A stretch of DNA of 48,554 bases from Acidobacteriaceae bacterium (lineage in GTDB: Bacteria > Acidobacteriota > Terriglobia > Terriglobales > Acidobacteriaceae): positions 1 through 48,554 of the forward strand of contig PLOG01000085.1 of NCBI GenBank assembly GCA_003142935.1, written 5' to 3'. Both the position numbers and the translations under genes were made by a program. Position 1 is the first letter of the stretch; every line of letters starts with the position of its first letter. Under the pieces are notes generated by a model. That model was given only the letters and a program-made list of their open reading frames with translations. It was not told the DNA's origin and ran no database searches. Positions 3,498-47,935 of this stretch are shown here, one piece after another.

Positions 3498-3624
3498 GTT
3501 GGCGCACGCCTTGCGATCGGGGTGGTTGAAAAAAGAACACCGGCGGCATGAGAAAGGGGACAAACGCTTTCCATCGCCGCAGCAGGTTCGGCTCTCTTGC
3601 ATTTTTTTTGCCTTGGGGAAGAAG

Positions 3625-4446
3625 ATGTCTTCGATTCGTAAGCCGGGGAATCGCGATACTGCTAATCGCGATACTGGGAATCGCAATTCCGGGAATCGGA
3701 ATACCAGCCCAATCCGTATCGGGTTAGTTGCCGACGAGCCAATACGTCTTGCGGGGCTGACCAGCGTCTTTGAGCAAGCTGTCCAGGTTGTCCATGGCCA
3801 ACTGCTCCCGATCATCGGGAGCATGACGGAATTGCTGGAGGCCGAGTCACTCCAATACCTGGTTGTGGATCTGCATATTTCCACTTTCGGACTCGAGACT
3901 CTGGACACCATTCGCCGCGCGCGCCCCGACATCAAGTTGATCGTGATTGGACCGGGCGGAAACGACGACCTGGCCCTGAACGCAATCGCCGCCGGGGCCC
4001 GGGCGTACCTGGACCATGAGGCAGGGCCGGAGGCGGTGCTCACTGCGATTGAGCAGGTGACGGAAGGTTCGATATGGGCGCCGCGGCGGCTGCTGTCGAA
4101 ACTGATTGACCGTTTGCTGGAGAGCCCCGACGCCAGGGAGGCCGCTATAGGTCCTGCACAGATCAGGCCTGCAGAGATACCGCCACCACCGATGGCGCCT
4201 CTAGAGACGACGCCTCTACAGACGGAGCCCTTAGAGAGAGCGCCTCAACTCACGGCTCGCGAAAGGCAGGTTCTTGAGCTGATTCTGAAGGCGCACTCCA
4301 ACCGCGAGATCGCGTCGGAACTGGGCATCGAAGAGCGCACAGTCCGCGCCCATTTGGCTCGATTAATGCGCAAAACAGGCGCAGATAACCGCATTAAATT
4401 GTCGATTTCGGCGCGGAGTCTTTTTTCAGTTGCCGTAGAGGAATGA
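3625..4446 (+). CDS. LuxR/NarL-type regulator with a degenerate receiver domain
   Basis: A 273-residue two-domain transcription regulator. Residues 8-27 are four five-residue repeats (GNRDT, ANRDT, GNRNS, GNRNT). A receiver-like domain follows (about 29-150), with an acidic pair in VADEPIR and an aspartate in LVVDLH where the phospho-acceptor would lie. The usual proline after the acceptor is missing and the conserved lysine near GARAYLDHE is replaced. A Pro/Thr/Glu linker leads to a C-terminal LuxR helix-turn-helix (LTARERQVLELI, SNREIASELGIEERTVRAHL). The ATG at 3625 follows GGGGAAGAAG. No histidine kinase gene is adjacent. It may work without phosphorylation; that is inference. Confidence 0.82.
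   Translation: MSSIRKPGNRDTANRDTGNRNSGNRNTSPIRIGLVADEPIRLAGLTSVFEQAVQVVHGQLLPIIGSMTELLEAESLQYLVVDLHISTFGLETLDTIRRARPDIKLIVIGPGGNDDLALNAIAAGARAYLDHEAGPEAVLTAIEQVTEGSIWAPRRLLSKLIDRLLESPDAREAAIGPAQIRPAEIPPPPMAPLETTPLQTEPLERAPQLTARERQVLELILKAHSNREIASELGIEERTVRAHLARLMRKTGADNRIKLSISARSLFSVAVEE
3646..3705 (+). repeat. Four 15-bp imperfect tandem repeats inside the regulator gene
   Basis: Units start at 3646, 3661, 3676 and 3691. The first two differ only in their first four bases; units three and four drift further. Each can be read as 7+7+1 or 7+8 bases (for example GGGAATC, GCGATAC, T), so it resembles the seven-base arrays elsewhere in the window but keeps the reading frame. They encode the N-terminal GNRDT-like repeats. 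Confidence 0.85.
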
Positions 4447-6819: not shown

Positions 6820-7848
6820 ATGACGCTGGGCGAACTGGTTGAAAAGCTGGGCGGCAGGTTGACGCAGGGAAGCCCTGCGGTTGCGCTCAGCGGCGTCGAA
6901 AGCTCGGGCGCGGCAAAAGAACAGGATCTGGTGTTTGCCGAGGACGCTGCCTCCGCTACGAAGGCGCTTGCCGGGGCTGCGGGGGCGCTGGTGCTCAAGT
7001 TGGGGTGTCTTGAAGGGTATGGCTCCAACTTGGCGATGGCGGTTGTGGAGGCCGATCAGCCGCGGCTTTGGTTTGCGCGGGCCGCGAAGCTGCTGAAGCC
7101 GGGAGTCGCAGCGGCGAGCGTGCATTCGACGGCGGCGGTTGGCTTGGAGGTCGAGATCGGCGAGGCAGTGACGATTGGCGCTTGTGCAGCGATTGGCGAT
7201 GGCGCCGTGCTTGGCTCGGGAACACGTGTCGAGGCTGGTGCGGTGATTGGCGAGGGGGTTCGGGTTGGCGAGAATTGCCGGATTTATCCGAATGTGACGA
7301 TCTATAGCGGAACGACGCTGGGCAATCGCGTGGTGGTTCATGCCGGCGCGGTGCTGGGAGCGGATGGCTTTGGCTATGTTCGCGATGCGAAGACCGGCAC
7401 ATACACGCAATTCCCGCAGCAAGGGACCCTCCTCATCGAGGATGACGTGGAGATCGGCGCCAACTCGACCATCGACCGGGGGGCGTTGAAGCAGACGCGG
7501 ATCGGACGCGGAACGAAGATCGATAACCTGGTCCATGTGGGCCACAACTGCGACATTGGCGAGGACGTGATTCTGGTCGCGCTGACGGGGATCTCCGGCT
7601 CGTCGACGGTGGGCAATGGGGCGGTGATTGCCGGGCAGGTGGGCATTGGCGACCACGTCAAGATTGGCCCCGGCGTGATTCTGGGGGGACAGGCGGGCGT
7701 CTTCAGCGGGTCGAAGGTCACCAACGAAGGCCTGAAGCCGGGAACCGTGCTCTACGGCACGCCGGCTCGGCCGCTGCGGCAGGTTCTGCGCGAACAGGCG
7801 GTGCTGGCGCGGATGGCGAAAAGGCAAAAGACAGGGAAAAGCGAATAG
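6820..7848 (+). CDS. lpxD: UDP-3-O-acylglucosamine N-acyltransferase
   Basis: Adds the N-linked hydroxyacyl chain to UDP-3-O-acylglucosamine, the third step of lipid A synthesis. The 342-residue protein has the LpxD N-terminal uridine-binding domain ([19 protein letters not shown]) and a long left-handed beta-helix of hexapeptide repeats ([19 protein letters not shown] onward). GADGFGYV and [10 protein letters not shown], holding the likely catalytic histidine, are present. The ATG at 6820 has GGGGAGAG upstream. The last codons (KTGKSE) run into a seven-base repeat array. Other lpx genes are not in the window. Confidence 0.95.
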
Positions 7849-7919
7849 GGAACCGGGAATAGAAGGTTTGGGCGGTGATTTGCTAGTTCCCTTTTTCCCG
7901 TGATTTCTGTTCCCTGCTG
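7833..7919. repeat. Facing 7/8-base-period repeat arrays between lpxD and cheR
   Basis: AGGGAAA, AGCGAAT, AGGGAAC, CGGGAAT follow one another with a seven-base period from 7833 to 7860, starting inside the end of lpxD. A looser array with the same GGGAA core in the opposite orientation occupies 7883-7919. AGGGAAC (7847-7853) can pair with GTTCCCT (7886-7892), which is followed by Ts, so the pair may act as a two-sided terminator between the convergent genes. Confidence 0.6.
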
Positions 7920-9970: not shown

Positions 9971-10339
9971 TCAGGCCTCGACCAGGCCGAGCATGGCGAG
10001 TTTTTCGTTGAGCGCCTGGTCGTCGAAGGGTTTCATCAGATATTCGTCGGCGCCGGCGTCGAGGGCGCGGAGGATGAATTCGTTCTCAGCCTCGGTGGTG
10101 ACCATGAGCACCTTCGTGCCGGTGTAGCCCTGCGCGCGCATGGCCTGGAGCATTTCAAAGCCGTTCATCACGGGCATGTTCCAGTCGAGGAGAGCGAGGT
10201 CGAAGGCGAGTTCGCCGTGCAGCCGATCGAGGCCGGCTTTTCCGTCGCCGGCTTCGACACACTCGATGCCCTTTTCTTCGAGCAGGGTGCGCAGAAACCC
10301 CCTGACGAAGCGGGAATCGTCGACGATGAGTGCTCGCAT
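9971..10339 (-). CDS. cheY: CheY-type single-domain response regulator
   Basis: A 122-residue stand-alone receiver, phosphorylated by CheA. The key residues are visible: the acidic pair in LIVDDSRF, the acceptor Asp in LALLDWNMPVMNGFEML, the Thr in VLMVTTEAE and the Lys in YLMKPFDD. It sits between cheW and cheB, separated from cheW by 226 bases that carry a nine-unit repeat array. Its output (flagellar switch, type IV pilus or other) is not shown by this window. Confidence 0.92.
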   Translation of the reverse strand: MRALIVDDSRFVRGFLRTLLEEKGIECVEAGDGKAGLDRLHGELAFDLALLDWNMPVMNGFEMLQAMRAQGYTGTKVLMVTTEAENEFILRALDAGADEYLMKPFDDQALNEKLAMLGLVEA

Positions 10340-10356: not shown

Positions 10357-10419
10357 TCAGCTATCAGCTTTCAGCTTTCAGCTCTCAGTTCTTAGTTCTC
10401 AGTTCTCAGTTCTCAGATT
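10357..10419. repeat. Nine-unit heptanucleotide tandem array upstream of cheY
   Basis: Nine consecutive seven-base units run without interruption: TCAGCTA, TCAGCTT, TCAGCTT, TCAGCTC, TCAGTTC, TTAGTTC, TCAGTTC, TCAGTTC, TCAGATT. The first half is TCAGCTN and the second TCAGTTC, a drift typical of unit-by-unit duplication. It ends 17 bases before the cheY start, inside the chemosensory operon. The rest of the cheW-cheY gap shows no gene. Confidence 0.92.
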
Positions 10420-10565
10420 CTCGTCGCGGGATTTAGAGTTTACCCCGGTCGTGCTCTTTCAAAACTCGATTCTTTCAACTCGTTCCGGAAGTTGACTGCC
10501 AATCCACTGCTGTCTCCCGATGCGCTTACGTCTTGAACTACCCTGCAAATGCTGAGCTCAAAAGC

Positions 10566-11045
10566 CTAATCCGGGTGAGCCTGACTGAGTTGAAGCGGAT
10601 CGAGGCGTTCGGGATCGAGCATGACCAGGAGCCTGTCCTTGAGCTTGTATGCGCCGGCGAACAGGGCCTTGCGGCGCCGATCGAGAATCGACGGGTTGGG
10701 TTCGTGGTCGGTGGAGGAGACGGTGAGCACCTCGCCGACCGCATCAACCAGAAGGCCGAAGCATCCGCCCGTGGACTCGAGCACCAGAATGGCCTGAGCA
10801 CCTTCATTGGGTGGCAAGTCGAGCAACTGGCGCAGGCTCACGGTTGTGAGCACGTCGCCGCGATAGTGGACCAGCCCGCCGACATAAGCGGGGGCGAGTG
10901 GGACCGGCTGAGGCCTCACTGCGCCCACAATCTCAAGAATGTGGGTGATGGGCACGCCGAACCACGTTTCGGCGAGGCGCACCGAGCAGACTTCCACCAG
11001 GACCGAGGCCTTAACCTTCTTATGCGACACGGTTGCTGTGCTCAT
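10566..11045 (-). CDS. cheW: Chemotaxis coupling protein CheW
   Basis: Adaptor that links chemoreceptors to CheA. The 159-residue protein is a CheW-like beta-barrel: VEVCSVRLAETWFGVPITHILEIVG, YVGGLVHYRGDVLTTVSLRQLLDLP, CFGLLVDAVGEVLTV and a C-terminal LKDRLLVMLDPERL. The ATG at 11045 overlaps the cheA stop by four bases (ATGA); an in-frame start at 11072 lies deep inside cheA and is less likely. Position directly after cheA supports one transcript. Confidence 0.93.
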   Translation of the reverse strand: MSTATVSHKKVKASVLVEVCSVRLAETWFGVPITHILEIVGAVRPQPVPLAPAYVGGLVHYRGDVLTTVSLRQLLDLPPNEGAQAILVLESTGGCFGLLVDAVGEVLTVSSTDHEPNPSILDRRRKALFAGAYKLKDRLLVMLDPERLDPLQLSQAHPD

Positions 11046-13354
11046 GCTACTGTCTCCGCAATCTGGTTCCAATCTTCAGAAACGTTTTCGCAGACCGGCA
11101 GGGGCTGCACGCCGGCCAGATCGACCACGCCGGTCACGCGATCCTTCAGGAGCGTGACGCCGCCGGTGCGCTGGCTGGTTCCAGCTTCAAACAGGTCGCC
11201 GCCCGCGGCCACGTCAAGCACGTGCGAAACCGCGATGCCTACGTGACGGTTGCCTTCGCGGCAGACGACTACGATGATCTGGGGTTCGCGATCGGTCTGG
11301 GAGGCAGAATTGGCCTCGGCCGCGGCCAGCACTCCGCCGGAATCCTCGACCGGCATCAACTGACCTTCGAAGTTGAGGACAGGCCGGTCGCCGATAAATT
11401 CAATGCGCGAAAGCGGAATCTGCTCGATGCGGAGTACGTCGGCCAGCGGCACGGCTGCGCGCCGGCCGGCGGCCTCGACCAACAGATACTCCATACCTTT
11501 GGCGGCGTTGGTGTCTTCTTCTTCACTGTCTGCGCCCTCAGCATCGCGGTCGGCGCTCATGGTGACTCCGGCTTTCACGGCGATGGCGCCGGGATCGAGG
11601 ATCAAGGCCAGGTCGGCGTTGCCCAGCACCGTTGCGCCGGAGTAGAGGCCGATAACTTTGAGCACGGCGGAGAGAGGCTTGACGACGATCTCTTCCGGGT
11701 CGGCGAGCCCGTCGACGACGAGGCCATAACGGCGGCCATCGACATCGAGCACGGCGATGAAACTGTCACGCTCCGAAGCGGATTTGTGTTCCCCGGCGGG
11801 CATCAGCAGCCGGTCTAGAAACACCAGCGGGAGGAGCTTTCCGCGCAACCGATAGAGGGGCGCGCCTTCGATCCATTCAATGGTTTTGGCGGCCTGCTCG
11901 GGGGGAACGTGGACCAGTTCGGAGAGCGAACCCTGAGGCAGCGCGAAACTCTGATTCACGCTACGCACGATGAGGGCTGGAATAATGGCCAGAGTGAGCG
12001 GAATGCGCAGGCGGAGCGTGGTCCCCTTGCCGGTGCGGGAGTCGATCTCGACCTTGCCGCCGATTTTTTCCACGTTGGTGCGGACCACATCCATGCCAAC
12101 GCCCCGCCCGCTGACGTTGGTGACGGCGGCGGCGGTGGAGAAGCCGGGGAGAAAGACAAGCTGCAGGAGCTCGTGCTCGCCCAACTGCGAAGCGCGTTCG
12201 GGCGCAATGATGCCGCGTTCGATGGCTTTGTCGCGCACTTTCTCAACAGCAATGCCGGCGCCGTCGTCGGAAACTTCGATGATGACGTGGCTGCCCTCGT
12301 GGCTGGCGCGCAGCTTGAGGGTTCCCTCCGGATCTTTACCCGCGGCCACGCGCACTTCCGGCGGCTCGATACCGTGATCGAGAGAATTTCTGACCGCATG
12401 GGTGAGGGGGTCCTTGATGGCTTCCAGAAGGCTCTTGTCGAGTTCGGTGTCCTGGCCCTCGACCACGAGGCGGACGCGGCGGCCGAGCGACTGGGAGAGA
12501 TCGCGCACAATGCGCGGCATTTTGGAGAAGATGTTGGAGACCGGCTGCATGCGCGCCTTCATGACGTTTTCGCGCAGGTCGGCGGTGACCATGTCGAGGC
12601 GCCGCGACAACAGGGTCATGTTGGGATCGGACGCGGTGGCTTGAAGGACCTGGTTGCGGGTGAGCACCAACTCGCCGACCAGGTTCATCATGCGATTGAG
12701 CAGAACCACGTCGACGCGGAGCGTGCTTTCGGCGGCGCTGCCGGCCGCGGCTATCTGGGCGCGCGGGCGCGACGCATCGGTCTCGCTGCCGGCCGCCGCC
12801 GATTGGACAACGGGCGCTGGAATTGCATTCGCCGGCTGCTGCGCGGGCGCGGCTGGAGCTTGAGCGGCGGACACTGGCGCCTGGGCTTGAGGCGCTGACG
12901 GGGCCTGCGGAGCGGCAGCCGCGGGCGCGGCCGAAAATGTCGCGCCGACTTTCGCGTGAACCGGCTGTTTTACGTTCGCCGGAGCCTGCAACGCCACCAA
13001 TTGCTCGATCAGCGCGGAATCTTCTCCCTCGCCTTCGCTGGCCATGGTCTCAATGGACTTGAGGATGGCGCGCAGACCGTCGAGCAAGTGAAGCAGGCCG
13101 GTGATAAGGGGCCGGTTGGCGGCCAGTTTCCCGTCGCGGAGCAGGCCGAGCAGGTTCTCGCCCGCGTGGGCCAGCGTTTCCAGCCGTTTAAAACCGAGAA
13201 ATCCAGTGGTTCCCTTGATGGTATGCACGGAGCGGAATATCTCGCCGAGAAGGGCGGCATCCTGTGGGCGGGTCTCAAGATCCGTGAGGCACTGCTCCAT
13301 ACGGTCCAGGCCTTCCTGGCTCTCGATCAGAAACTCCCTTGTCAGTTCATCCAT
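11042..13354 (-). CDS. cheA: Chemotaxis histidine kinase with two C-terminal CheW-like domains
   Basis: The 770-residue kinase of the chemosensory operon. It starts with an Hpt domain (MDELTREFLIESQEGLD; phospho-His at about residue 44 in SVHTIKGT). An Ala/Pro/Gln-rich linker follows, then a dimerisation domain (VVLLNRMMNLVGELVLTRNQ), an ATPase domain (DPLTHAVRNSLDHGIE, DDGAGI, GRGVGMDVVRTNV) and the regulatory CheW-like domain. After an acidic linker a second CheW-like domain appears (EYLLVEAAGRRAAVPLADVLRIE to the C-terminus), which is not usual for CheA. The start is taken at 13354 because the Hpt begins there; the open frame reaches 13531 through repeat sequence. Confidence 0.94.
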   Translation of the reverse strand: MDELTREFLIESQEGLDRMEQCLTDLETRPQDAALLGEIFRSVHTIKGTTGFLGFKRLETLAHAGENLLGLLRDGKLAANRPLITGLLHLLDGLRAILKSIETMASEGEGEDSALIEQLVALQAPANVKQPVHAKVGATFSAAPAAAAPQAPSAPQAQAPVSAAQAPAAPAQQPANAIPAPVVQSAAAGSETDASRPRAQIAAAGSAAESTLRVDVVLLNRMMNLVGELVLTRNQVLQATASDPNMTLLSRRLDMVTADLRENVMKARMQPVSNIFSKMPRIVRDLSQSLGRRVRLVVEGQDTELDKSLLEAIKDPLTHAVRNSLDHGIEPPEVRVAAGKDPEGTLKLRASHEGSHVIIEVSDDGAGIAVEKVRDKAIERGIIAPERASQLGEHELLQLVFLPGFSTAAAVTNVSGRGVGMDVVRTNVEKIGGKVEIDSRTGKGTTLRLRIPLTLAIIPALIVRSVNQSFALPQGSLSELVHVPPEQAAKTIEWIEGAPLYRLRGKLLPLVFLDRLLMPAGEHKSASERDSFIAVLDVDGRRYGLVVDGLADPEEIVVKPLSAVLKVIGLYSGATVLGNADLALILDPGAIAVKAGVTMSADRDAEGADSEEEDTNAAKGMEYLLVEAAGRRAAVPLADVLRIEQIPLSRIEFIGDRPVLNFEGQLMPVEDSGGVLAAAEANSASQTDREPQIIVVVCREGNRHVGIAVSHVLDVAAGGDLFEAGTSQRTGGVTLLKDRVTGVVDLAGVQPLPVCENVSEDWNQIAETVA

Positions 13355-13449
13355 CGCTTTGAACCATCCAGCCAGCCGGGATTTTGCGGCCCCGGCGCGG
13401 CGAGCACTTAAGGCCTTTATCGGATGGAAGAGGATGAACTTGAGAAAAC

Positions 13450-13477
13450 AGGGGTCAGGGGTCAGAGGGCAGTTGCA
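13450..13477. repeat. Four-unit heptanucleotide array between cheA and cdd
   Basis: AGGGGTC, AGGGGTC, AGAGGGC, AGTTGCA run head to tail with a seven-base period. The series closely resembles the array at 36072-36099, which ends AGGGGTC, AGTTGCC. It lies in the roughly 220-base divergent gap between cheA and cdd. Confidence 0.75.
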
Positions 13478-13576
13478 GCGTTTGCCGGGCATTGGCGATA
13501 TACAGAGACGGCGGAGATGCTTTAGCCTCAAGTCTCAGGCCGGCAAATCTCAGGCTGGAAGGACAAGGAATACACG

Positions 13577-15538: not shown

Positions 15539-15658
15539 CAGCTTCTAGCTCTTAGCTTCTAGCTTTTAGCGTTGCTTTTCCGGCCCACTACGAGCATCGG
15601 AAAGTCGCAACCAAGTCTCATGCGCAAACACCAGCTAGAAGCTAGCAGCTAGAAGCTG
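15539..15658. repeat. Two facing heptad arrays forming a 26-bp inverted repeat before the transporter gene
   Basis: Arm 1 (15539-15564) consists of AGCTTCT, AGCTCTT, AGCTTCT, AGCTTTT-type units. Arm 2 (15633-15658) consists of AGCTAGA, AGCTAGC, AGCTAGA, AGCTG. Arm 2 is the reverse complement of arm 1 at 24 of 26 positions, with 68 bases between. The second arm ends only a few bases before the AGGAGG ribosome site of the transporter gene, so in a read-through transcript the hairpin would abut translation initiation. Confidence 0.88.
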
Positions 15659-22221: not shown

Positions 22222-23421
22222 CTACTTCTTTGGATGCTCCTCCTTTTGCGGAGCCTGCTGGCGCTGTGGTTGAGGAGCGGCTTTACGCTGTTGCTGCGGC
22301 GGAGCCTGCTGGCGCTGTGGTTGCGGAGCCTGGCGCTGCTGCTGTTGCGGATTTACCTGACGCTGTTGCTCCTGCTGAGTTGTCTGGCGCTGTTGCTGTT
22401 GAGGATTTACCTGGCGCTGTTGAGGATTCCCTTGACGCTGTTGGAGTTGCTGAGCGCCTTGATTTCGTACCGGAGCCGCCGCTGGGACTCTCACGTTGCG
22501 ATCGGCTGCAAGCGGCCGGTTGACGGCCACGCTGGCCGGATGGCCATGATTGACATTGGCAAACTGTGCCCTATTGGTGCTGGCAGAACGCTCGTTCTGC
22601 ACCTGCGCTGCCATGGGCGCAGCATGCTGCTCATGTATTGCATTCAGTTCAGCGGGTCTGGCTCGCACCTGGATCCCGCCCGAACCGCCGTTGAAACTCA
22701 CACGGGCGCTTCCCCTGTTATCTCCGCCAACAGGATGGTCATACATATGGTGCACGACGGAGGTATTGATGTTATTGACTGAGCGGTTGTAATTGAAGTG
22801 GCCGCCACCCCAGTATCCGCCTTCGTACCCTAATCCGCCGTAGCCAAAACCGTAGTTGATGCCGCCGTAGTAGCCGATGTGCCTGCCCCAGTATCCGCGG
22901 TAGAAGCCATAGCGGTTATGCCAAAAACCCCAATAGCCGGGAGTCCAGAGTGCGCCCTCATAGGGAGCCTCAACCCAGGCGCCGGGCACCCAGTAGTAGC
23001 CGGCCGACGCCCAGCCCCAGTAGCCGGGCGTCCAAAGATAGCCGTCGCCGGGGTCGGGGGGCTGGTCGTAGTTGGGCAAGGGGGGAGGCGGCTGGGAAGC
23101 GTAGGTTACCGGCTGCTCACCGTATCCTGGATCGCTCGAAGACTGGCCGGAGGACTGGTCAGAGGACTGGTAAGAGGCGTTTCCCTGGTCCGGCGGAGGC
23201 GGGCTCTGCTGGTAGCTTGAAGGAGTCGCGGATGCGTATTGTGGATCACCTGGGTTGTTTGAACCGGAGGCCAAGTTAGCTGCCGCCGGGTCCGCGTTCT
23301 GCGCACCGGCTGCGTTAGTATTGGCGGTGGCCTCGTTTTGGCTCTGAGGGCAACCGGTGGTAAAAAGCACGACCGACATGGCCAGCAGCGGCATTAGTGT
23401 AAGTCTTGAAATGTATCTCAA
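22222..23421 (-). CDS. YXWGXW-type surface lipoprotein with Gln-rich tail
   Basis: A 399-residue putative lipoprotein. The N-terminus (TLMPLLAMSVVLFTTGC) has a lipobox with Cys at about residue 24. A Ser/Gln/Pro-rich stretch leads to repeats of the W-x-PG-x-W type (YLWTPGYWGW, YYWVPGAW, ALWTPGYWGF). A Gly/Tyr-rich core follows, and a long C-terminal tail (from about residue 320) is made of Gln/Arg/Pro repeats such as QRQVNPQQQQRQ and PQPQRQQAP. Start is TTG 23421 with GGAG upstream. Such proteins are common but functionally undefined in Acidobacteria; a cell-surface location is likely. Confidence 0.82.
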   Translation of the reverse strand: MRYISRLTLMPLLAMSVVLFTTGCPQSQNEATANTNAAGAQNADPAAANLASGSNNPGDPQYASATPSSYQQSPPPPDQGNASYQSSDQSSGQSSSDPGYGEQPVTYASQPPPPLPNYDQPPDPGDGYLWTPGYWGWASAGYYWVPGAWVEAPYEGALWTPGYWGFWHNRYGFYRGYWGRHIGYYGGINYGFGYGGLGYEGGYWGGGHFNYNRSVNNINTSVVHHMYDHPVGGDNRGSARVSFNGGSGGIQVRARPAELNAIHEQHAAPMAAQVQNERSASTNRAQFANVNHGHPASVAVNRPLAADRNVRVPAAAPVRNQGAQQLQQRQGNPQQRQVNPQQQQRQTTQQEQQRQVNPQQQQRQAPQPQRQQAPPQQQRKAAPQPQRQQAPQKEEHPKK

Positions 23422-36071: not shown

Positions 36072-36099
36072 AGAGGACAGAGAGCAGGGGTCAGTTGCC
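36072..36099. repeat. Four-unit heptanucleotide array upstream of the orphan higA
   Basis: AGAGGAC, AGAGAGC, AGGGGTC, AGTTGCC follow with a seven-base period. The last two units nearly repeat the series at 13450-13477. It lies in the divergent gap between ftsQ and the HigA-like gene, about 55 bases before the latter's start. Confidence 0.7.
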
Positions 36100-37231: not shown

Positions 37232-37255
37232 CAAGGAAACAAGGAAACAAGGAAA
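37232..37255. repeat. Three perfect 8-bp tandem repeats upstream of the AbrB gene
   Basis: CAAGGAAA is repeated three times without change. It lies between the murC stop region and the antitoxin start and so occupies the antitoxin's leader on the minus strand. The copy number could vary by slippage. Confidence 0.85.
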
Positions 37256-37271
37256 TCTTACCATATTTAGC

Positions 37272-38675
37272 CTAGACTTCAGAATGGATGGTTTCAAGGG
37301 CTGCCAGAATTTGCGGGGCTAACTGGCTGACGCTGCCGGCGCCTAGGGTCAGGATGAGATCGCCTTCGCGGACTTCGGTCGAAACCAACTGAACTGCGGC
37401 GCCAAACTCCGGAACAAAATGAACGACCGGCCCCTGGATGCGGCTGGCCAGGCTCTCGGCAGTCACGCCGGGAATGGGCTCCTCGCTGGCGGCGTAGATG
37501 GGTAGGACGATGACCGAGTCGGCGTCAGCAAATGCGCCGCTGAACTGGTCCAAAAGATCGAGGGTACGGGTATAACGGTGGGGCTGGAAGATGACGTGGA
37601 TCTTGCGGTGACCACACTCGCGGGCGGCGGCCAGGGTGGCGCGAATCTCTGTGGGGTGGTGACCGTAGTCGTCGACCACAGTGACGCCGTGTGCCGTGCC
37701 GCGAAGCTGAAAACGCCGGTCCACGCCTCGGAAGTGACCCAAGCCCTCGGCAATCTTCTCCGCAGGAACTTCGAGCTGGCGGGCAATGGCGACAGCGGCG
37801 GTGGCGTTGAGAACGTTGTGGCGTCCGGGAACATGGAGTTCGAAGGGGCCAAGCGTTCCGACAGCGGTGTGGATAAGGAATCGGGCGAAGCGAATGTCTA
37901 CTGGCGAATTGGGAGATGCATTGGCTGACGCAACAAATTCGAGCTGGAAATCGGCTTCCGGGTCTACGCCGTAGGTGAAGACTCGGCGGCGAACACGAGG
38001 CAGGATGGCTTTGAGCAGCGGGTTGTCGATGCAGGCGGTGACGGCTCCGTAAAACGGCACGCGGTCCATAAAGTCGAGGAAGGCGCGCTCGACGTCGGCC
38101 ATGTCGCGGTAGCAGTCCATGTGCTCGCGGTCGAGGTTGGTGACCACGGCCAGGATGGGCGAGAGCTTGAGGAAGGAGCGGTCGCTCTCATCGGCTTCGG
38201 CGACCAGGTACTGCGTGGTTCCGAGACGGGCGTTCGAGCCCAGCGCGTCCACGCGGCCGCCGACGACTACGGTGGGGTCGAGCCCACCGGCGGCGAGCAC
38301 GCTGGCCACCATCGAAGTCGTCGTCGTTTTGCCGTGCATGCCGGCGATGGCGATCCCGTATTTGAGCCGCATCAGCTCGGCCAGCATTTCGGCGCGCTGG
38401 ATGACGGGAATCTTGCGGGCGTGGGCCTCGACGACTTCAGGGTTTGCGACGCCGACAGCCGAGCTGGTGACGACGACGGTGGCTCCGGCAACGTGGCCGG
38501 CCTCATGACCTTGATAGATGGTTGCGCCGAGCTGGGCCAGACGATCGGTGACCGGACCGCGGCGCAGATCGGAGCCCGAGACCTTCATGCCGAGGTTGAG
38601 CAGAATCTCGGCAATGCCGCTCATGCCGATGCCGCCGATACCAATAAAGTGCGCGTGCTGGGAGGTGGCAAACAT
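37272..38675 (-). CDS. murC: UDP-N-acetylmuramate--L-alanine ligase
   Basis: Adds the first amino acid to UDP-MurNAc in peptidoglycan synthesis. The 467-residue protein has the dinucleotide-like HFIGIGGIGMSGIAEIL, ATP-binding IAGMHGKTTTTSM, EADESDRSFLKL, TNLDREHMDCY, HVPGRHNVLNATAAVA and DDYGHHPTEIRATL, all typical of MurC. The ATG at 38675 is used because the glycine motif follows at once; upstream lies a repeat array and no ribosome site is evident. murB and ddl, often next in the cluster, are absent here. Confidence 0.96.
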   Translation of the reverse strand: MFATSQHAHFIGIGGIGMSGIAEILLNLGMKVSGSDLRRGPVTDRLAQLGATIYQGHEAGHVAGATVVVTSSAVGVANPEVVEAHARKIPVIQRAEMLAELMRLKYGIAIAGMHGKTTTTSMVASVLAAGGLDPTVVVGGRVDALGSNARLGTTQYLVAEADESDRSFLKLSPILAVVTNLDREHMDCYRDMADVERAFLDFMDRVPFYGAVTACIDNPLLKAILPRVRRRVFTYGVDPEADFQLEFVASANASPNSPVDIRFARFLIHTAVGTLGPFELHVPGRHNVLNATAAVAIARQLEVPAEKIAEGLGHFRGVDRRFQLRGTAHGVTVVDDYGHHPTEIRATLAAARECGHRKIHVIFQPHRYTRTLDLLDQFSGAFADADSVIVLPIYAASEEPIPGVTAESLASRIQGPVVHFVPEFGAAVQLVSTEVREGDLILTLGAGSVSQLAPQILAALETIHSEV

Positions 38676-38697
38676 TGGGAGGTGAAACTCCAATGTA

Positions 38698-38739
38698 GCA
38701 GTGGACAGGGGGCAGTGCACAGTGGGCAGGGGGCGGTGA
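38698..38739. repeat. Six-unit heptanucleotide array upstream of murC
   Basis: GCAGTGG, ACAGGGG, GCAGTGC, ACAGTGG, GCAGGGG, GCGGTGA: six units with a seven-base period and alternating GCAG/ACAG starts. It begins 22 bases upstream of the murC start codon and so covers its likely leader. Confidence 0.85.
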
Positions 38740-39128: not shown

Positions 39129-39713
39129 ATGCGGAGTAACCGCTTGGTTCTGTTGGCGATGCTTCTGGCTTTACCGTTCGCGGTCACGGCCAAAGCACAG
39201 GTGGGAGTTGGCGTTGGCGTCGGCCCCGCAGTAGTTGATGGTCAGAACGATTACGCTGGTGGCTACGATTACGGTCCGCCGGTATGCAGCTGGGGCTACT
39301 ACTCTTACTATCCCTATGCCTGTGCGCCTTATGGGTATTACGGGCCGCAGTGGTTTTACGGTGGCATGTTCATCGGCGCCGGGCCGTGGTACGGATGGGG
39401 CCGGGGCGGATACGGCTATCGCGGCGGATATGGATACGGCCGGGGTGGTTATGCTTATGGCGGGCGCGGCGGCTATGGGTACGGCAACCGTGGCGGATAC
39501 GGCGGGCGCACTCCTTATGCAGGGGGCGGAGCGCGCGGCTATAGCGGCGGAGCGCGCGGCTATGCCGGTGGCGGAGCACGCGGCTATAGCGGTGGGGCGC
39601 ATGCCTCTAGCGGCGGCGGACATGCCGGCGGCAGCTTCCATGGTGGCGGCGGTGGAGGTGGTGGTTTCCACGGCGGCGGCGGCGGACATGGCGGCGGTGG
39701 CGGACACCGGTAA
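39129..39713 (+). CDS. Secreted glycine/tyrosine-rich repeat protein
   Basis: A 194-residue exported protein. A signal peptide (MRSNRLVLLAMLLALPFAVTAKA) is followed by a Tyr/Pro/Cys part (CSWGYYSYYPYACAPYGYYG). The rest is made almost entirely of Gly-rich repeats: first GGYGYRGGYGYGRGG types, then ARGYSGG/ARGYAGG, then GGGHAGG and poly-Gly. AGGAGG lies six bases before the ATG. It lies on the strand opposite to murC and murG, breaking the cell-wall cluster into two transcripts. A surface or matrix role is plausible, not shown. Confidence 0.82.
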   Translation: MRSNRLVLLAMLLALPFAVTAKAQVGVGVGVGPAVVDGQNDYAGGYDYGPPVCSWGYYSYYPYACAPYGYYGPQWFYGGMFIGAGPWYGWGRGGYGYRGGYGYGRGGYAYGGRGGYGYGNRGGYGGRTPYAGGGARGYSGGARGYAGGGARGYSGGAHASSGGGHAGGSFHGGGGGGGGFHGGGGGHGGGGGHR

Positions 39714-42264: not shown

Positions 42265-43646
42265 TACTTCCACTCCTGCCGTTGGCTGACGAGTTGCTTG
42301 AAGGCACGGCCGCGCTGCTCGTAGTTTTCAAACTGGTCAAAGCTGGAACAGGCCGGCGCCAGCAGCACCACTTCGCCGGGGCGCGCTGCGCTGGCGGCGG
42401 CATTGACTGCCTTCTCCAGAGTCTCGCAGGAGTTGAGTGAAACCAGGCCGCGCAGGTGCGACTCGATTTTTTGAGCCGCCGAACCGATGGTGTAGACCGC
42501 ACTCACTCGGTCCCGCAGCAGTTGCGAAAGCAGCCTGTAGTCGGAGTTTTTGTCCTTGCCGCCCAGGATGAGATGAATGCCGGAAGAGAATGCGGCAATG
42601 GCCTTGGCCGTGGCGTCAACGTTGGTGGCTTTGGAGTCGTTGTAGTACTCGACGCCGTTGATTGTGGCCACGTATTCCAATCGGTGCTCGACGGCCTGGA
42701 ACTTCTCTACGGCGCGGCGAATTGTCTCCCCAGGTACGCCGGCCAGACGGGCCGCAACGACAGCGGCCAGCACATTCTCGACGTTGTGCGCGCCCTTGAG
42801 CGGGATTCCTTTGAGGGGCATTACCTGCTCAATCTCCGCGCCCCTGGCGGCAGAATCTCCGACCGCCCGGTAGACCACGTATCCACTCTCGAGCCAGGCG
42901 CCCTGCTCAACCTCATGCTCGATTGAAAACCAGTAGACACTGGCCTTGGTTCGAGCAGCGGCTTCGGCGGCACGGGTGTTATCGGCGTTCAGTACTGTAA
43001 AGTCGTTCGCATCCTGGGCGGCGAAGATGCGCTCCTTGGCCAGCGCATAGTTCTCGAAGCTGCCGTGGCGGTCAAGATGGTCCGGCGTGATGTTCAGGAT
43101 GACGGCGATGTTGGGGTGGAATTCAACGGTGCTTTCAAGCTGGAAGCTGGAAACCTCGAGCACCGACCAGGTGTCGGGGGTGCTCTCATCAATGAGCCCG
43201 ATGACCGGCACGCCGATGTTGCCACATACGAGGGTGCGCAGGCCGGAGTCCGAGAGGATTTCGCCGAGCAGGGTCGTGGTGGTGGTTTTTCCGTTGGAGC
43301 CAGTAATGGCCACAGACTTGCCCTTGAGAAAGCGCGCGGCCAGTTCGAGTTCGCCGATTACCGGCAGGCCAAGGTTCCTGACCTGGACCAGTTCCTGCGT
43401 ATCCAGCGGCACGCCAGGGCTGACGACGATCAGATCCTGACGCCGGAAGGTGAGCAGGCCATGGCCGCCAGCCTCAACCATGATGCCCTCTTCAAGGAGA
43501 GCGGGGATGTCGTTGGCCAACGATTCGGCGCTGCGCACGTCGGAGACAGTAACCAGCGCGCCCTTGCGGCGCAAAAACAGGGCCGCCGCCAGACCGGATT
43601 TTCCCAGTCCCACAACCAGAACTTTCTTGCCTTTGAGTTCCATCAT
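42264..43646 (-). CDS. murD: UDP-N-acetylmuramoylalanine--D-glutamate ligase
   Basis: Adds D-glutamate to UDP-MurNAc-alanine. The 460-residue Mur ligase has VLVVGLGKSGLAAALFL, VSPGVPLDTQELVQ, ATP-binding ITGSNGKTTTTTLLGEIL, EVSSFQLESTVEFHPNIAVILNITPDHLDRHGSF (given as family parts), KGAHNVENVLAA and YYNDSKATNVDATAKAI, LILGGKDKNSDY, LLAPACSSFDQFENYEQRGRAF. It lies between the FkbM-like gene and ftsW, overlapping the latter by one base. Confidence 0.96.
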   Translation of the reverse strand: MMELKGKKVLVVGLGKSGLAAALFLRRKGALVTVSDVRSAESLANDIPALLEEGIMVEAGGHGLLTFRRQDLIVVSPGVPLDTQELVQVRNLGLPVIGELELAARFLKGKSVAITGSNGKTTTTTLLGEILSDSGLRTLVCGNIGVPVIGLIDESTPDTWSVLEVSSFQLESTVEFHPNIAVILNITPDHLDRHGSFENYALAKERIFAAQDANDFTVLNADNTRAAEAAARTKASVYWFSIEHEVEQGAWLESGYVVYRAVGDSAARGAEIEQVMPLKGIPLKGAHNVENVLAAVVAARLAGVPGETIRRAVEKFQAVEHRLEYVATINGVEYYNDSKATNVDATAKAIAAFSSGIHLILGGKDKNSDYRLLSQLLRDRVSAVYTIGSAAQKIESHLRGLVSLNSCETLEKAVNAAASAARPGEVVLLAPACSSFDQFENYEQRGRAFKQLVSQRQEWK

Positions 43647-47893: not shown

Positions 47894-47935
47894 AGCCTCC
47901 AGCTAGCAGCTAGCAGCCGATAGCTGGAGGCTGCT
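47894..47935. repeat. Heptad array folded into a hairpin between the HNH gene and ilvC
   Basis: AGCTAGC, AGCTAGC, AGCCGAT, AGCTGGA, GGCTGCT form a seven-base series from 47901. AGCCTCCAGCT (47894-47904) pairs with 47922-47932, and CTGCTTTT follows on the plus strand. The AGCTAGC unit also occurs in the array at 15633-15658. Confidence 0.75.

Follow-up and report, generated by a model that had tools for sequence, protein, structure and literature searches.

Heptanucleotide arrays in the analyzed contig

The stretch of DNA analyzed in this study (hereafter the window) comprises 48,554 nucleotides of contig PLOG01000085.1 from an Acidobacteriaceae bacterium and contains several seven-base tandem arrays, most of them close to the ends of genes. 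A strong single array of nine YAG units was detected by both TRF and a scan for YAG chains at positions 10357-10422 of the forward strand, between a response regulator domain (Pfam Response_reg, 9971-10339) and a CheW domain (10566-11045). Its units drift along its length from CAGCTNN to YAGTTCN, i.e., from AGCT to AGTT. Read on the minus strand, which is that of the operon, it is a right-arm (NNNNCTR) array directly upstream of the cheY-like gene; it has no clear left arm and is the longest single arm in the window. In relatives, none of the 21 readable loci among the 23 best-matching ones fetched has a run of two or more YAG units in the cheW-cheY gap, and this gap measures 2-40 nt in 20 of the 21 by our own parse, which did not establish the upstream gene for every relative.

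A second site, which the preliminary description of this DNA had presented as one series at 15539-15658, does consist of heptads, but these form two opposite arrays around a spacer. The left arm (CAGCTTCTAGCTCTTAGC...) occupies 15539-15573 on the forward strand and begins 8 nt past the stop codon of the pyrimidine nucleoside phosphorylase gene. It is followed by the spacer (15574-15630), for which no similar spacer was found among the compared loci of the same genome, and by a right arm of reverse complement heptads (15631-15658, minus strand) upstream of the nucleoside transporter gene. This is the one full pair of the window. RNA folding of the gap that contains it gave -59.6 kcal/mol (z -2.78), a value as low being reached by 2 of 200 shuffles. 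In addition, a compact near-palindromic element of the AGCT family lies at 47899-47933, with an HNH gene on one side and ilvC on the other. In the adjoining operon, which we take from its sequence to be ilv-leu, four further heptad pairs separate genes and a fifth lies at the divergent border.

The other sites are less pronounced. Two moderate arrays on the forward strand coincide with predicted 5' ends of minus-strand genes: a 4-unit CAGGGGT array at 13449-13476 overlaps that of a cheA-like gene (11042-13492), and a 5-unit mixed CAGTG/CAGGG array at 38698-38738 is located at that of a Mur ligase gene (37272-38720). A weak, degenerate AGGGAAN inverted pair was recognized by eye between convergent genes at 7833-7916 (arms 7833-7862 and 7883-7916), and a doubtful CAG-phased series of three to four imperfect units is present at 36072-36099 on the forward strand; TRF at score 30 reported neither 7833-7860 nor 36072-36099. 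Thus, five of the seven sites listed previously are clear and these two are weak, and the sites are real although in places their phase and ends had to be shifted by a few bases. The series of 8 bp and 15 bp that had been regarded as related proved to be of another kind, since no heptad array is present at 37232-37255 and 3646-3704 falls within an ORF called at 3613-4446. Longer imperfect tandem repeats with periods of 18-51 were also observed at 22246-22443 and 39500-39706, in or over predicted ORFs, and are probably protein repeats. The window and four operon loci, 107,366 bases in all, gave no matches when searched against Rfam at the gathering threshold.

Frequency of period-7 repeats

Seven YAG chains of at least four heptads were found in the window, compared to a mean of 0.22 (maximum 2) in 50 shuffles; these seven chains belong to five sites because two sites carry chains on both strands. 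Similarly, six period-7 segments with a score of at least 9 were obtained, whereas 100 dinucleotide shuffles gave 0.58 on average and never more than 3, so that the arrays do exceed composition-matched shuffles, as the preliminary description had implied. We then considered a sample of 388,595 bases (window included), whose stretches were not picked for hits, though the positions of hits were already known. Here, periods 7, 14, and 21 gave 14, 14, and 8 segments versus 0.4, 0.2, and 0.2 after shuffling, periods 8, 10, 11, and 13 gave 0-2 segments, and periods 9, 12, and 15 gave 6 segments each. Ten of the 14 period-7 segments are centred outside predicted genes and four inside. Coding repeats were rejected as the source of period 7, as 12 of the 20 segments of periods 6, 9, 12, and 15 fall within predicted genes but only 4 of the 14 of period 7 do. 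Across the whole genome to which the window belongs, the AGCT pattern CAGCTNNNAGCTNNNAGCT has 95 matches and its reversed control none, and the AGTG pattern CAGTGNNCAGTGNNCAGTG has 353 matches versus none in the control, long arrays being counted several times.

Inverted pairs and the unit rule

Heptad arrays are mostly not simple tandem repeats but halves of inverted pairs. This dominant form, with a matched unit family in both arms and a position just past stop codons inside operons, had been overlooked before. The typical layout consists of a stop codon, usually 2-6 nt, a (YAGNNNN)n array, a spacer of approximately 20-90 nt, an (NNNNCTR)n array, the ribosome-binding region, and the next start codon. 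In a set of 672 intergenic gaps that was partly chosen by hits, strong inverted repeats were present in 143, 124 of which had period 7; by gap type, and in a set likewise partly chosen by hits, pairs were found in 26 of 247 tandem, 3 of 66 divergent, and 1 of 69 convergent gaps. The corresponding numbers in the 388,595-base sample are 4/116 for tandem gaps, 0/34 for divergent gaps, and 0/36 for convergent gaps. Among 187 gaps having chains in both orientations, 181 show them in convergent order, and a further 77 gaps are one-armed, with 39 containing a left array and 38 a right array. The pairs fill the slot that is free in an intergenic gap, for the most part where the neighbouring genes are co-transcribed. 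The operons of the window's genome that bear pairs are, as far as we recognize them from their sequences, ilv-leu, gap-pgk, L13-S9-S2, atp, mreB-mreC, fli, and que. The longest pair among the matches listed for this genome is on contig C55, where approximately 31 consecutive heptads of the CAGTG family (43004-43225) stand opposite a shorter array at 42815-42854.

A common rule for the unit had been suggested from the window, and it is borne out by 402 arms containing 1049 heptads. AG occurs at one phase in 94% of sites (0.945), with the phase picked to maximise AG and the next best of ten dinucleotides reaching 0.65. The preceding base, which was unused in the choice of phase, is a pyrimidine in 957 of 985 cases, and A is nearly missing from the two positions after AG. 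The units fall into the families AGCT, AGTG, AGTT, and AGGG, plus intermediates, and these replace each other while the period remains constant, just as the preliminary description had noted for the window. The commonest unit, YAGCTNN, contains no G-tract; the AGGG family does contain G-tracts. A G-quadruplex was considered as the basis of the arrays and rejected: because units such as CAGCTTT lack G-tracts, it cannot be the common basis.

The two arms of a pair agree in family in 162 of the 187 two-orientation gaps. Many of the 25 pairs with unlike arms combine near variants, and some clear cases were found in locus L085 (e.g., an AGGG left arm with an AGCT right arm). In several gaps of L085, left arms of AGGG or AGTG are combined with right arms of AGCT or AGTG; it looks as though the left arm had been replaced first. 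Over 120 pairs, the match score of an arm with its own partner was 16.7, compared to 4.1 for any swap and 6.0 for a swap within the same genome. In 87 pairs, the arm match was 0.86 in register, 0.80 on average (0.87 at best) when one arm was slid by one or two units, and 0.19 for shifts that are not multiples of the unit. Since sliding by a whole unit costs little, it is the identity of the units and not their order that is kept.

Heptad pairs in the ribosomal S10-spc operon

Contig C88 of the window's genome carries what we take to be the S10-spc operon (the L3 translation was inspected, and the other genes were named from sequence). We compared it with the operons, complete or partial on their contigs, of the 36 genus genomes with the best L3 search matches. 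Among the 504 gaps of at least 40 nt in these 37 genomes, some of them wide and with a small gene inside (S14 in L5-S8; infA-S13), 210 contain a heptad pair, 7 another inverted repeat, and 287 neither. When gaps of at least 60 nt were shuffled, 10 of 2110 reached the inverted-repeat score. In the window's own genome, 11 of 18 gaps of at least 40 nt have a pair of assignable family. L4-L23 and secY-adk have no gap and hence no room for a pair. No pair was detected in loci L060 (0/4 gaps), L063 (0/16), L078 (0/4), L079 (0/17), and L082 (0/4), and L065 has a single pair of unassigned family in 16 gaps.

Some junctions show other features. At L3-L4, loci without heptads (L056, L058, L059, L064, L072, and others) have a short GC-rich hairpin (CCACCTGCGGTGG, GCGCC-TTCG-GGCGC), which is an alternative filling of the same slot. 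At S10-L3, many draft contigs of the genus start just before rpsJ/rplC, as if the upstream sequence broke the assembly. Some compact L2-S19 gaps, which on first reading may be ancestral empty sites, retain what looks like the last unit of a right arm.

Turnover between species and agreement within genomes

Parsimony on the operon tree gave 173 label changes over 19 junctions, although the labels depend on the score threshold and decayed pairs that are scored as absent inflate the count. The changes were not significantly fewer than for shuffled labels at 18 of the 19 junctions, with junctions that have few elements lacking power in this test. The exception is L23-L2 (p 0.017), and three more junctions lean to a signal (p 0.07-0.10). 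The unit family at one junction thus varies between species with little phylogenetic signal; at L3-L4, for example, the sister species represented by L090 and L085 have an AGGG and an AGCT element, respectively. Alignments of close relatives also contain whole-unit differences (L085/L090 at L23-L2; L072/L073 at L6-L18). The position of the slot at each junction is nearly fixed across unit families. It had been proposed that the arrays reflect an active process, and on the between-species scale the process does look active, with high turnover over the 19 junctions.

Within a genome, agreement in family between junctions was 0.485, compared to 0.363 for permuted labels, a level reached in 0 of 2000 permutations. 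Two genomes with AGTG-rich operons, G008 and G002, have 288 AGTG versus 28 AGCT matches and 72 versus 14, respectively, yet the window's genome, where AGTG also prevails (353 versus 95), has an operon of mainly AGCT elements.

Distribution in other genomes

The strict AGCT pattern occurs in 28 of 41 genomes near that of the window, including 23 of 24 others of the genus. A slightly shorter version is patchily present in 52 of 197 Acidobacteriota genomes (own included), a number too high by a few since the reversed control was as frequent or more so in G138, G176, G180, and G252. Absence from other Acidobacteriota, which would have spoken against the preliminary description, was therefore not observed for this one family.

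The S3-L16 junction is short outside family f1 (1-53 nt in 13 of 14 loci), and no heptads were seen by eye in these 14 loci; the six loci of family f1 include one pair, one case of unlike arms, and one remnant. In the 12 stretches of genus g36 that were viewed, heptads are paired or come after stop codons, some as overlapping palindromic arrays. In a distant genus of Acidobacteriota, inverted or nearby heptads flank a terminator-like hairpin, as judged by eye, in L280 and L282 (genomes G199 and G131). AGCT arrays or pairs are also found, among the matches listed for named genomes, in Hymenobacter, Dyadobacter, Pseudoalteromonas, Moorena, Pirellulales, Chloroflexi, and others; 80 of these 117 stretches were viewed, and many are continuous arrays that fit the pattern without a spacer.

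Slippage and template switching as a tentative mechanism

The best explanation that we can offer, though a tentative one that falls short of an even chance, combines slippage within arms and template switching between arms in a local, replication-linked turnover that would be independent of transposases. Within an arm, whole units would be gained or lost through slipped-strand misalignment. Between arms, short-range template switching at the imperfect palindrome would copy sequence and keep the arms alike, whereas ectopic copying might spread new arrays and some cores between junctions. The stem could have mild effects on transcripts, and selection would not be required. Short-range template switching at imperfect palindromes is known for quasipalindromes. 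The homogenization of inverted-repeat arms by template switching has been reported (PMC8604942, PMC7202029, and PMC8794818).

The matched families, the unordered units, the absence of significant strand asymmetry, and the independence from RAYTs fit slippage combined with template switching. The preliminary description had already invoked a slippage- or polymerase-driven process; slippage within arms is a plausible part of it, but on its own explains neither the inverted partner nor the family match. Several observations sit less comfortably with our preferred reading. Template switching predicts ordered copying, and the fact that register barely beats a one-unit shift counts against it. Alignment gaps in arms number 49 at 7 nt, compared to 34 at 6 nt and 21 at 8 nt (elsewhere 32 at 7 nt, 37 at 6 nt, and 20 at 8 nt), and this modest excess of 7-nt gaps counts against slippage. 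The 25 unlike pairs together with the 77 one-armed gaps indicate that homogenization is incomplete or slow. Furthermore, slippage and template switching account for the matched arms and not for period 7, YAG, or the crowding in the ribosomal operon, and the concentration of pairs there (11/18 versus 4/116 in the tandem gaps of the sample) hints at a function. Finally, the cores that are shared across junctions look more like mobile cassettes than like products of slippage and template switching.

Alternative explanations

These cores bear on the possibility that a pair and its core constitute a small mobile cassette of the MITE or REPIN kind, with an enzyme encoded elsewhere and with arms that are fast-evolving ends, a reading that we consider conceivable but doubtful. 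For spacers of the same junction and family, 23% of comparisons exceed the 99.5th percentile of the null; between junctions, the values are 2.4% where the family is shared and 4.4% for comparisons made inside a single genome. A core of approximately 36 nt (TTCGTGC...GCGAGAT) recurs at eight or more S10-spc junctions, as a shared cassette would. With nhmmer, it gave 23 hits at E<=1 in 1.32 Mb, including the 15 sequences used to build the model, and none in shuffled sequence. One copy was detected outside the operon (E=0.011), beside a gene that is presumably queC. The core is linked to the arms of the AGCT family, where 16 of 87 untrained elements are above the null versus 1.7 expected (3 of 88 versus 1.8 for the other families), and the idea that it carries every arm family was rejected, the mixed-arm cases of L085 aside. 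The presence of elements also differs between the gaps of close relatives, in line with mobility. On the other hand, the loci of the window's genome show no clear sharing of spacers (heptads aside, two weak pairs at E 0.03-0.04, with two hits in the shuffled control), and all 13 core hits with E<0.01 in 9 genomes (150 candidates each) are confined to the S10-spc operon. Because the core recurs but is bound to AGCT arms and is not clearly shared among the former loci, its dispersal is real yet limited. Inspection by eye of aligned filled and empty gaps revealed no obvious target duplication.

Two enzyme families were checked as candidate movers, PF01797 and PF00078. The Y1/RAYT transposase family PF01797 is present in 39 of the 40 genus genomes, with 1-10 matches in each; it was rejected since heptads lie within approximately 1.5 kb of 2 of 20 RAYT loci and the family was matched in 0 of 8 heptad-bearing g36 genomes, which also weighs against a cassette moved by such an enzyme. 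Reverse transcriptase (PF00078) was discarded as a requirement, being matched in 2 of these 8 genomes and giving no match in 6.

It is rather unlikely that the pairs are primarily selected intercistronic RNA hairpins, whose stems would process, protect, or insulate cistrons and whose arms would be kept alike by selection on pairing. Such a role agrees with how strongly the pairs are enriched both in the ribosomal operon and between genes of the same direction, with a slot that is kept across unit families, and with the stable stem predicted for the one gap that was folded. Mismatches between arms on the sense strand lean slightly to G-T (192) over A-C (163; 99 versus 91 in a smaller first set), but the excess falls short of significance (p=0.14). 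These counts therefore lean towards selection on an RNA stem without demonstrating it. In addition, pairless operons exist (0/16 gaps in L063 and 0/17 in L079, with one pair in 16 gaps in L065), S3-L16 outside family f1 has little room at 13 of 14 loci, and one-armed and mismatched gaps persist.

A further reading, which we rate as improbable, is that an activity independent of RAYTs and transposases writes YAGNNNN at gene ends, in a family that tends to be typical of the genome, and rewrites both arms. CTG is the start trinucleotide of bacterial primase. The constant CTR on the opposite strand of the units resembles this start, and lagging-strand priming with primer removal could set phase and period. 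Least of all can the mosaic presence be attributed to junction alleles exchanged between species via recombination in flanking genes, which is very improbable: the L2-S19 and L3-L4 elements are similar in distant clades, but flanking 180-nt stretches are no more alike for junctions in the same state (1 of 24 tests with p<=0.05, in a comparison blind to conversion tracts under 180 nt).

Relation to known repeats and significance

Cyanobacteria have heptanucleotide STRR sequences, and the P6b stem of their tRNA-Leu intron is built from degenerate heptads on both sides of a hairpin. The arms described here are alike in having degenerate heptads on both sides of a hairpin. REPINs are short intergenic inverted pairs around a spacer. 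The heptad pairs resemble them in their inverted intergenic arms around a spacer but differ in that neither a conserved REP palindrome nor a link to RAYTs was seen. REPINs are the subject of Bertels and Rainey 2011 (PMC3116915).

The likeness to cyanobacterial heptads drawn in the preliminary description is apt, but a class of repeats from Xanthomonas and Nostoc is closer in architecture, judging from the sections of Rehm et al. 2015 (PMC4692102) that describe it. According to these sections, the GGGAATC and GGGGA(C/T)T heptameric repeats, whose cause is left unexplained there, are intergenic, lie between aligned ORFs, and are under-represented between divergent ORFs. They follow a strand rule, in that a given strand of the repeat lies close to the stop when it is on the coding strand and close to the start when it is on the non-coding one, form 70 and 75 convergent inverted pairs in two Xanthomonas genomes, and keep their gene context in relatives while length and sequence vary. 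Period 7 above chance, intergenic position, co-directional ORFs, fixed strand, and convergent inverted pairs are thus common to both as far as that account goes. In contrast, each of those genomes is described with one G-rich unit type, whereas several interchanging families, crowding in the ribosomal operon, and some shared cores are found here.

Likewise, in the portions considered of MacGregor 2015 (PMC4679880), TAACTGA direct repeats are reported from Beggiatoaceae, Cyanobacteria, and Bacteroidetes as intergenic heptamer arrays that occur in ribosomal operons as well. The reverse complement, TCAGTTA, fits YAGNNNN. Unlike the pairs studied here, those repeats are described there as direct and mostly just before starts, with one inverted case in 170 sets, and related heptamers are seldom repeated at those sites.

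We found no account of heptad pairs in Acidobacteriota in the literature covered, which included few subscription papers. What is new relative to known heptamers is the combination of interchangeable families, matched arms, crowding in the ribosomal operon, and units incapable of forming a G-quadruplex. Earlier reports dealt with heptads in isolation, be it as G-quadruplexes, as translation signals, or as simple repeats, and they appear here as one architecture with several families, for which G-quadruplexes and RAYTs fail as general causes. With one unit rule and an architecture for which 37 genomes can be compared at each junction, the bacterial preference for seven bases becomes testable, and the genomes of the 14 species of genus g36 covered here, with 0 to 69 AGCT matches, provide natural contrasts. 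Should the stems have a role in mRNA, the pairs would represent a fast-changing layer within one of the most conserved bacterial operons. If instead a writing activity of the kind considered above exists, heptads in many phyla would be the mark of a general, as yet undescribed replication activity.
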